The notes under the pieces: generated by a model
What the model was told of the DNA's origin: nothing
The model's database searches: none
What the model saw: only the letters and a program-made list of their open reading frames with translations
Source of the DNA: Rhodobacter aestuarii
Lineage (GTDB): Bacteria > Pseudomonadota > Alphaproteobacteria > Rhodobacterales > Rhodobacteraceae
NCBI RefSeq assembly: GCF_900156655.1
Contig: NZ_FTOG01000004.1
Span: 186,001 to 250,000 of the forward strand
Direction: 5' to 3'
Length of the DNA: 64,000 nucleotides
Shown: positions 3,486 through 24,772 of the stretch, piece by piece
How positions within the stretch are numbered: the first letter of the stretch is position 1
How the letters are laid out: every line of letters starts with the position of its first letter
Program-made: the position numbers and the translations under genes

Positions 3486-3560
3486 TGCAGCGAAACCTAT
3501 ACCAGCGACGGCGGGACACCCCTCCCCAACGAGGGGCGTTTATCTGGAAGGATAGCACAG
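3486..3560 (+). ncRNA. serC leader RNA (cis-regulatory, sequesters the serC ribosome binding site)
   Basis: Two hairpins can be read directly. The first is CCCCTC at 3519-3524 paired with GAGGGG at 3531-3536 around a CCCAAC loop. The second is TATC at 3541-3544 paired with GATA at 3551-3554; its loop and 3' arm hold the serC Shine-Dalgarno GGAAGGA (3546-3552). The serC leader is an established alphaproteobacterial RNA family found before serC, whose last stem overlaps the ribosome binding site, and both position and layout match that description. The ligand or trigger of the family was not known to me. The 5' boundary is approximate; a covariance-model search would settle it. Confidence 0.65.
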
Positions 3561-24185: not shown

Positions 24186-24239
24186 TTTTACTTGTCATAC
24201 ACCAAATCTGTGCCACCCTTTCCTTATCGGCAACGCATT

Positions 24240-24256
24240 GAAAGGAGGTGGTCCAG
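24240..24256 (+). promoter_or_regulatory. Exceptionally long Shine-Dalgarno (complement of the 16S 3' tail)
   Basis: The bases GAAAGGAGGTGGTCCAG match the reverse complement of the conserved 16S rRNA 3' end (GAAAGGAGGTGATCCAG) at 16 of 17 positions. The one difference, G for A, still allows a G-U pair. The core GGAGG lies seven bases before the GTG of the mini-ORF. Ordinary genes in this window show 4-7 base matches. Confidence 0.75.
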
Positions 24257-24312
24257 TGTCTAGAGTGATATTGGAGAGAGGTGTCGGGACAGTTATGGGG
24301 GCCGAGGCCTGA
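24256..24312 (+). CDS. 18-residue mini-ORF, candidate leader peptide
   Basis: A GTG start at 24256 and a TGA at 24310-24312 enclose the peptide VSRVILERGVGTVMGAEA. It is preceded by the strongest ribosome binding site in the window. Its codons are odd for this genome: AGA twice, ATA, ACA, TCT, TTG and GTT are all used in only 18 codons, while neighbouring genes overwhelmingly use G/C-ending codons. This could mean that the RNA sequence itself is under constraint, or that translation speed matters, as in an attenuator leader peptide. It has no known motif. It could instead be only a ribosome-docking RNA with no useful product. Confidence 0.5.
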   Translation: MSRVILERGVGTVMGAEA

Positions 24313-24393
24313 GGGCAGACCCAAAGGTTTCATCCATAGCTGGGACGGAGGATCTGATCCAGACCCTAACCGGACCATCTCCGTAGATCTCGG

Positions 24394-24427
24394 GGGTCGC
24401 AGGGAAATCCCGCGACCCTTTCTCTTT
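24394..24427 (+). terminator. Intrinsic terminator 1 (after the mini-ORF)
   Basis: GGGTCGC (24394-24400) pairs with GCGACCC (24412-24418), extended inwards by GGG/CCC across one bulged A with an AAAT loop, and followed by TTTCTCTTT (24419-24427). Upstream GACCC copies can compete for its 5' arm. Confidence 0.75.
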
Positions 24428-24443
24428 GCGACTTATCGACCGA

Positions 24444-24467
24444 GGGGGCTTTTCAGGCCCCCTTTTT
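24444..24467 (+). terminator. Intrinsic terminator 2
   Basis: GGGGGC (24444-24449) pairs with GCCCCC (24457-24462) around TTTTCAG and is followed directly by TTTTT. It is a textbook intrinsic terminator placed 63 bases before the xseB start, so xseB-ispA-dxs needs either a promoter within 24468-24520 or read-through. Confidence 0.85.
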
Positions 24468-24529
24468 GCTGTCTGGGGCTGGATTCGGGCGCCGCGCCGT
24501 GGCACTCCGAGAGGGTCTTGGAGGGGCCG

Positions 24530-24772
24530 ATGGCGGAAATCGAAATTGCAGACATGACGTTTGAGCAGGCGATGGCCGCGCTTGAACAGGTGGTCAATCA
24601 GCTAGAACGCGGCGAAGTGGCGCTGGATCAGTCGATCCGGCTCTCGGAACGTGGGGCATTGCTCAAGGAGCGCTGCGCGGAGCTGCTTAAGGAAGCCGAG
24701 GAGCGGGTCGAAAAGATCACCCTTGGCGAAGGCGGGGTGCCCAAAGGCACGCAACCGGTGGAAGGTCTGTAA
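24530..24772 (+). CDS. xseB: Exodeoxyribonuclease VII small subunit
   Basis: XseB (80 residues, usual length) joins XseA to form exonuclease VII, which degrades single-stranded DNA. The protein is a helical hairpin with the family segments MTFEQAMAALEQVVNQLERG (residues 9-28) and LDQSIRLSERGALLKERCAE (residues 32-51). The ATG at 24530 follows GGAGGGG (24520-24526), but with only three bases between; the conserved start MAEIEIADMTFEQ supports it. The stop overlaps the ispA start by one base. The order xseB-ispA-dxs is widely conserved in Proteobacteria. Confidence 0.95.
   Translation: MAEIEIADMTFEQAMAALEQVVNQLERGEVALDQSIRLSERGALLKERCAELLKEAEERVEKITLGEGGVPKGTQPVEGL

Follow-up and report, generated by a model that had tools for sequence, protein, structure and literature searches.

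The stretch of DNA analysed here, which we call the window, comprises 64,000 nucleotides of the Rhodobacter aestuarii contig NZ_FTOG01000004.1. Its forward strand carries, in this order, a short open reading frame (ORF), a set of RNA stems, two intrinsic terminators and the genes xseB, ispA and dxs. We read the region from about 24228 to 24427 as a self-contained, single-copy RNA gene, with a promoter-like block, a Shine-Dalgarno (SD) sequence, an 18-codon ORF, a structured part and a terminator. All of these features, listed below with their positions in the window, lie on the + strand.

The promoter-like block (24192-24219) is conserved upstream of the SD in the Rhodobacteraceae-type loci. 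It contains a -35-like box, which reads TTGTCA in the window and, in many of the relatives, TTGACA; the spacer holds CACCAAATCTGTG (24200-24212), a partial palindrome. A promoter consensus scan of the window did not pick the block, and its promoter role is one that we infer from the sequence. The palindrome reads CACAAAATCTGTG in many relatives and lies between the -35-like box and the RNA start; it is conserved in the Rhodobacteraceae and could be a regulator site.

The extended SD, GAAAGGAGGTGGTCCA (24240-24255), is the complement of the 3' tail of 16S rRNA with one G:U pair. It is followed by the mini-ORF VSRVILERGVGTVMGAEA (24256-24312), whose 18 codons run from a GTG at 24256 to a TGA at 24310-24312. 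An earlier note on this DNA had described an 18-codon ORF with a very strong ribosome binding site, and this description was borne out. Among purine-rich 16-mers of both strands, the SD is the strongest 16S-tail complement in the window, with -27.9 kcal/mol compared with -20.5 kcal/mol at the next distinct place. Rhodobacteraceae 16S rRNA ends in CTGGATCACCTCCTTTC, as read in two genomes (G141 and G045). A pattern for the 16S tail had no match in the assembly of the R. aestuarii genome itself and three matches in 21 genomes, all of them on the strand opposite to the element. The form GAAAGGAGGUGRUCCAG complements the whole 16S tail, the variable R pairing with U either way, and the complementarity spans 15 to 17 nt.

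The RNA gene would end at the intrinsic terminator GGGTCGC..GCGACCC-TTTCTCTTT (24394-24427; 98.8% paired), which a simple terminator scan did not pick and which was found in the RNA fold. The second terminator (24442-24467, with a stem at 24442-24464 and a T run) lies 63 bases upstream of xseB and is apparently local, outside the conserved unit. Folding of 24240-24480 gave -105.1 kcal/mol (z -2.50, 2 of 200 shuffles as good). The RNA also contains GACCC at 24318-24322 and again at 24362-24366, as well as a conserved stretch, AGAGAGGUGUCGGGACAG. Elsewhere in the window, a serC leader (RF00517) at 3509-3560 with 73.7 bits is the sole Rfam match above its gathering score.

Distribution and gene neighbourhood

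BLAST with positions 24200-24530 gave matches in 229 of 295 genomes of the same family at E<=0.01, and the conserved core consisted of the SD and the first codons. At E<=0.01, a covariance model built from 54 Rhodobacteraceae-type sequences (R1) had a match in 94 of 100 genomes of the family, and 89 of these matches were full-length, at E<=4.4e-7 (rows counted by hand); many further R1 rows in the family genomes were short matches of 20 to 31 bits. The exact SD block with the start codon occurred once in 73 of the 100 family genomes and twice in none, and the reversed control occurred in none. A search for paralogues in the R. aestuarii genome gave, beside the element, short chance-level matches alone. 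Beyond the family, the exact pattern was present in 71 of 385 genomes of the class and in 48 of 299 genomes of the phylum, that is, in 48 of the 86 belonging to the class and in 0 of the 213 others (rows again counted by hand); the scan with the named pattern is a sample, of at least 120 stretches. Two loci, L121 and L126, have no SD match within three changes. A plasmid search with locus L300 matched solely a flanking gene of Mesorhizobium plasmids.

The gene yhhQ lies upstream of the element in 116 of 129 Rhodobacteraceae-type loci; 10 of the remaining 13 have at least 500 bases of upstream sequence, and yhhQ is absent from them. Downstream, xseB and ispA were found in 7 of the 129 loci, the stretch examined having a median length of about 1.7 kb. 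Outside the Rhodobacteraceae type, in a comparison that relied on mechanical ORF picking and chose some antisense ORFs, the neighbours, the downstream gene and its strand vary and are shared among close relatives alone, so that we rejected synteny as a clue to function there. In 40 Rhodobacteraceae loci, the first same-strand gene downstream of the element is a member of one cluster with the motif GPGGQNVNKV, which we take to be ArfB-like, and several of these genes begin soon after the terminator.

The promoter-like block and the terminator thus belong to the element itself, and control of xseB-ispA-dxs in cis is improbable as the function for which it is conserved. The earlier note had considered an attenuator of these genes and, as another possibility, an independent small RNA. 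The attenuator, in which ribosomes on the mini-ORF would control termination ahead of xseB-ispA-dxs, would fit the order of ORF, stems, terminators and xseB and the 63 bases between the second terminator and that gene, but we consider it highly improbable, given that xseB and ispA follow in so few loci, that the downstream gene and strand vary across the class, and that its proposed GACCC:GGGTC antiterminator showed no covariation, whereas the terminator arms covary with each other. Both GACCC sites are present as the note had claimed. Pairing with GGGTC was 73.3% for the site at 24318-24322, equal to the shuffle mean of 73.3, and 71.1% for the site at 24362-24366, compared with a shuffle mean of 70.0 and with 44 of 500 shuffles as high. 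The idea of an independent small RNA gained support from a conserved unit without linkage to downstream genes, and the element appears to be a stand-alone small RNA gene of about 190 to 200 nt, untied to what follows it. Read-through into xseB may still occur in the R. aestuarii genome itself.

Reading frame and RNA structure

An ORF of 14 to 35 codons was present in 252 of 256 distinct members, with exactly 18 codons in 123, many of the 256 having come from a search pattern in which the start and bases 1 and 2 of codon 2 are fixed. The 90 Rhodobacteraceae loci found by BLAST were selected without an ORF criterion, and in 85 of them codon 19 is a stop (TGA in 48, TAG in 19, TAA in 18, and TGG never). 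An earlier stop is present in 1 of these loci in the frame of the ORF, and in 72 and 62 of them in the other two frames. A larger, length-filtered set had a stop at codon 19 in 121 of 128 sequences, and an earlier one in 2, 93 and 81 sequences in the three frames. When the triplet after the SD was read without restriction, it was GTG in all 88 BLAST-found loci with the exact block (2 of the 90 are without it); the loci found with a covariance model gave GTG 11, ATG 10 and TTG 2 times in the 23 with the exact block (5 of 28 are without it).

The per-site ratio of non-synonymous to synonymous change was 0.82, and the peptides of different clades have little in common beyond MS, which is partly imposed by the search pattern. 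This comparison shows that the start codon, the frame and the position of the stop are kept, and that the peptide appears hardly constrained. The exchange of stop codons, together with a frame that is kept while the peptide drifts, suggests that what selection maintains is the act of translation and the place where it stops, more than the peptide that is made. We infer that the mini-ORF is translated. An independent, conserved RNA with a translated ORF is very probable, and the 18-aa peptide itself is probably incidental. Counting against translation, the intergenic ncRNAs of Caulobacter are described in PMC4117421 as untranslated, with two exceptions.

The kept frame and stop and the strong SD would also suit a small mRNA that functions through its peptide, be it a trans-acting leader peptide or a small peptide with a binding role. 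The 23-aa SEP1 of S. meliloti has the top translation efficiency among 54 high-confidence sORFs, as stated in PMC10117765, and members from genus g571 encode 23-aa peptides, the same length as SEP1. SEP1 might be a member of this family, but its pI, reported as 4.18 (PMC10117765), may not fit. The ratio of 0.82 weakens a peptide function, as does the scarcity of residues shared between clades beyond MS. The TWIVAS codons of the Caulobacter type coincide with a copy of the 16S tail inside the RNA (see below), so that their conservation can be an effect of the RNA. We regard a functional peptide as quite unlikely.

Pairing was counted in two alignments. A1 holds 54 aligned of 60 diverse picks from 114 Rhodobacteraceae-type sequences with a good terminator, and A2 holds 31 aligned of 50 diverse picks from 75 Caulobacter-like sequences with a good terminator; both omit long or very divergent sequences, and the pairing percentages are those of the alignable core. 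The named structure of 41 pairs was 92.1% paired in A1, compared with 44 to 54% when partners were slid, and 22 pairs changed on both sides, compared with 14.1 in shuffled data; 0 of 500 shuffles reached any of the measures.

The start-codon hairpin (24252-24275), formed by UCCAGUGU and AUAUUGGA with the loop CUAGAGUG, had 97.9% of its cells paired in A1, and a hairpin at this place was also predicted by a single-sequence fold of the window. Immediately 3' of the stop codon lies a small hairpin, GGG-CAGA-CCC (24313-24322; 96.3% paired), which takes the form GGG-CARN-CCC in A1, with an outer pair that is GC in 28 and AU in 14 of the 54 sequences. Stem P3, formed by 24290-24298 and 24334-24342, was 80.2 and 73.0% paired in A1, and 8 of its 10 pairs changed on both sides, as did 8 of the 9 pairs of the terminator at 24394-24427. 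P1 joins the loop of the start hairpin (24263-24266) with a strand just ahead of the terminator (24388-24391; 88.9% paired). It has four pairs in A1, three of them with two-sided changes, and the helix is short in the window itself.

The 16S tail is repeated inside the RNA by the mimic GGACCAUCUCC (24372-24382), which can pair with the SD at 24244-24254. In A1, the SD core and CAUCUCC (24376-24382) were paired in 97.9% of cells. The SD side of this helix is almost invariant in the Rhodobacteraceae and two-sided changes are absent there; most changes on the 3' side are C/U or A/G, and pairing is kept. The long hairpin that the earlier note had drawn at 24345-24384 did not hold up, because its 5' arm enters columns that are mostly gaps in relatives and CATCTCC in its 3' half has the SD as an alternative partner in that same 97.9% of cells.

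The whole structure of A2 was 87.4% paired, compared with 34 to 52% when slid. Here the SD pairs with the 16S-tail-like CUGGAUC..GCCUC inside the ORF (82.8 and 83.7%), and P1 joins codons 3 to 5 with GACAAUG before the terminator (7 pairs, 88.0%). These two helices cross, so that they form a pseudoknot or exclude each other.

Across types, P1 had an energy of -7.0 kcal/mol with its own partner compared with -4.2 kcal/mol with swapped partners, and the own partner was better in 89% of 270 members. P1 was unsupported in the Bradyrhizobium-like MSFT type (4 loci; own -2.6, swapped -3.5). A Bradyrhizobium-like clade (L204, L239, L241, L264 and others) has a 14-codon ORF, mostly ending in KRCHLAGIAR, and its CUCGCUGG can pair with the downstream CCAGCGAG. 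Outside the Rhodobacteraceae, the energy of SD-mimic pairing was only modestly below that of shuffles, with a mean z of -0.8 to -1.3 compared with -1.9 within the family. The base before the start codon matched the mimic in 37 of 64 loci, where the shuffle mean was 27.2 and the maximum of 2000 shuffles was 35, in a test that ignored phylogeny and left out loci with ORFs over 45 codons; 40 further loci did not bear this covariation out (29 had a base other than A; 11 of these held the motif, and 5 of the 11 matched, counted by hand). Taken together, the pairing counts in A1 and A2 support rather than prove the structure, because the structures were drawn from the same sequences and kinship alone can exceed such shuffles.

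The earlier note had expected its reading to fail if the ORF, stems and terminators were not conserved in related genomes. Conservation was in fact found for the frame and the stop of the ORF, for several stems and for the first terminator. Both terminators of the note are present in the sequence, but no counterpart of the second one was seen, by eye, in the same-genus relative L010.

Relation to the CC2171 family

The earlier note knew of no described leader at this position. This is correct at the Rfam gathering threshold, at which no RF01867 is reported for the element, but a permissive scan placed RF01867 (CC2171, a Caulobacter sRNA), model positions 1-159, at 24232-24418 of the window with 28.7 bits (E 2.2e-4 in a 411-base search). 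The match is full-length and collinear, from a 5' AAC box to the terminator, and 8 of 8 tested relatives match RF01867 at the same place. The gathering score of 75 bits was not reached by the window (28.7) or by these 8 Rhodobacteraceae relatives (30.8 to 43.2). It was passed by 6 of 15 loci from other orders, belonging to Rhizobium, Methylobacterium, Pseudolabrys, Bosea, Sphingomonas and Falsiroseomonas. RF01867 was found in 26 of 142 genomes of the class, 5 of them over the cut-off.

Of the initiation block GAAAGGAGGUGAUCCAGUGUCU of RF01867, the window has 21 of 22 bases, and the one change, A to G, still pairs with the U of 16S rRNA. RF01867, which Rfam types as 'Gene; sRNA', has in common with the element the block GAAAGGAGGUGRUCCAGUGUCU, a rho-independent end, and a helix that joins the first codons to the sequence ahead of the terminator. 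Its consensus reads as a 22-codon ORF, although this was read by hand from a consensus and is not a gene. The two differ in that the mimic of the window lies 3' of the stop codon, whereas that of CC2171 lies inside the ORF, and in the peptide. Among the open-access PubMed Central papers searched, none was found to describe an ORF, a mimic of the 16S tail or a function of CC2171, which is a line in a table of the Rfam 15 paper. One family member has been reported to be transcribed, namely MH_s33 of Mesorhizobium huakuii, annotated RF01867 and listed as a 215-nt RNA-seq product in a table of PMC5596092.

Reciprocally, R1 gave 31 whole-model matches at E<=0.01 on 40 chosen loci of other groups. 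The E-values of R1 are loose, off-target matches reaching E 0.00075, and 25 of the 40 loci score higher than any off-target match, the highest of which has 18.4 bits. No R1 match was obtained with the seven SD-only controls, which were two 16S loci and five viral contigs. The viral contigs (L326, L331, L332, L329 and L333), which served as such controls, have the same extended SD and other ORFs, of 58 codons in three of them. A covariance model of the Caulobacter type (R2) matched 20 of 20 sources, the window and 19 Rhodobacteraceae-type loci, with 29.6 to 58.7 bits over about 185 to 200 nt; on the SD-only controls it gave 12.4 to 24.1 bits over 29 to 49 nt. The window itself scored 29.6 bits, slightly above these controls. 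R2 also matched 47 of 190 genomes of the class at E<=1e-4, three of the matches spanning merely 31 to 44 nt, little beyond the SD. Because the window scores low with both models (28.7 bits with RF01867 and 29.6 with R2), its relation to CC2171 rests on its relatives (30 to 59 bits) and on the reciprocal search.

Small ORFs with a strong SD and a terminator might instead have arisen by convergence in different orders, and would then not form one family with CC2171. The R2 score of the window, close to the SD-only controls, is what convergence would lead one to expect, and so are the overlap of off-target R1 matches with the weakest R1 matches and a sequence between SD and terminator that differs by clade. 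Convergence is difficult, however, to reconcile with R1 placing 25 of 40 other-group loci, and 0 of 7 SD-only controls, above every off-target match, with a P1 helix common to most types, with one copy per genome, and with a pattern found in 48 of 86 genomes of the class and 0 of 213 others. We therefore consider convergence unlikely. The element is probably a divergent relative of the CC2171 RNA found across the Alphaproteobacteria, and its homology to RF01867 is likely but not certain.

Several unusual loci were seen during these searches. Genome G306 has two differing copies, L106 and L125 (MSHCHALNAAS.. and MSHGSAKGSV..), both matched by RF01867 and R2. Three Azospirillum loci (L221, L257 and L272) as well as L131, L296 and L297 have the same initiation block, R2 matches of 184 to 283 nt and an ORF of 55 to 59 codons whose product resembles a small secreted protein. 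Three metagenome-assembled genomes, two labelled Gemmatimonadota and one Nitrospinota (L166, L186 and L244; R2 30.3 to 32.7 bits), also have the block together with a short ORF, which may reflect contamination or mislabelling.

A possible ribosome-gated small RNA

Our preferred reading, which we hold as a whole with moderate confidence, is that of a ribosome-gated, trans-acting small RNA with a translated mini-ORF. The nascent RNA would offer its SD to the 30S subunit, and the mini-ORF would be translated above all before the 3' mimic is made. Once the mimic is transcribed, the SD could close by pairing with it. Binding of a ribosome or 30S subunit and SD-mimic pairing would be mutually exclusive, a bound ribosome separating the SD from the mimic, and the availability of 30S would determine which fold the RNA takes. 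Action in trans is the weaker part of this proposal: the ribosome-bound form might free the CC[AC][UC]CUCC strand as an anti-SD-like seed, or it might simply hold the 30S subunit. Candidate outputs would be the freed anti-SD-like strand, 30S retention and RNA stability.

The RNA might also titrate or block the 16S anti-SD constitutively and in this way damp SD-dependent initiation, translation of the ORF being a side effect. Complementarity to the 16S tail over 15 to 17 nt and a single copy per genome, where the element is found, are consistent with such a role, but the conserved stop codon and frame would be left unexplained and a sealed SD would work against titration. We give a titrator a low probability.

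Within the ribosome-gated reading, we suggest only tentatively that many Alphaproteobacteria keep one RNA with both halves of the SD:anti-SD pair, a perfect SD for the whole 16S tail and a copy of this tail, as a direct sensor of free 30S subunits or of ribosomes with an exposed 16S tail. In such a sensor, the SD would be contested between free 30S and the internal copy, the ORF would be translated for its effect on the fold and not for its peptide, and the signal would be the altered fold or the released anti-SD-like strand.

The extended-SD control of rpsU in Flavobacterium, as described in PMC9976891, resembles this arrangement in that a single gene of each genome senses ribosomes through an unusually strong SD, which pairs extensively with the 16S tail; for the element, the likeness in the single SD refers to the exact SD block with its start codon. 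There, rpsU encodes the ribosomal protein bS21, and SDs are otherwise kept from being recognized (PMC9976891). The element, in contrast, has a drifting mini-peptide, a terminated small RNA and an internal copy of the 16S tail, and its product is not a ribosomal protein. A small RNA with a translated short ORF is also known from rnTrpL/peTrpL of S. meliloti (as presented in PMC10117765) and from Pos19 of R. sphaeroides (as presented in PMC5036791), and the likeness is one of description. For rnTrpL/peTrpL a functional peptide and regulation in trans are described, and the passages devoted to it in PMC10117765 do not mention complementarity to the whole 16S tail. The CCUCC-motif sRNAs SmelA075 and SmelA099, and RS0680a of R. 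sphaeroides, similarly have an anti-SD sequence through which pairing with SDs in trans would be possible, as set out in PMC3927594. In those sRNAs CCUCCUCCC lies in several hairpin loops (PMC3927594), whereas the single CC[AC][UC]CUCC strand of the element can pair with its own SD.

These comparisons connect CC2171 with most Rhodobacteraceae of the sample and with members from many further families of the Alphaproteobacteria. They also reveal a short ORF whose frame and stop are conserved, and a ribosome site that a copy of the 16S tail can close. If ribosome gating is true, the RNA would report on the supply of ribosomes in a class in which, to take Caulobacter, an SD is used by only about a quarter of genes (24.6% of CDSs; PMC4117421).
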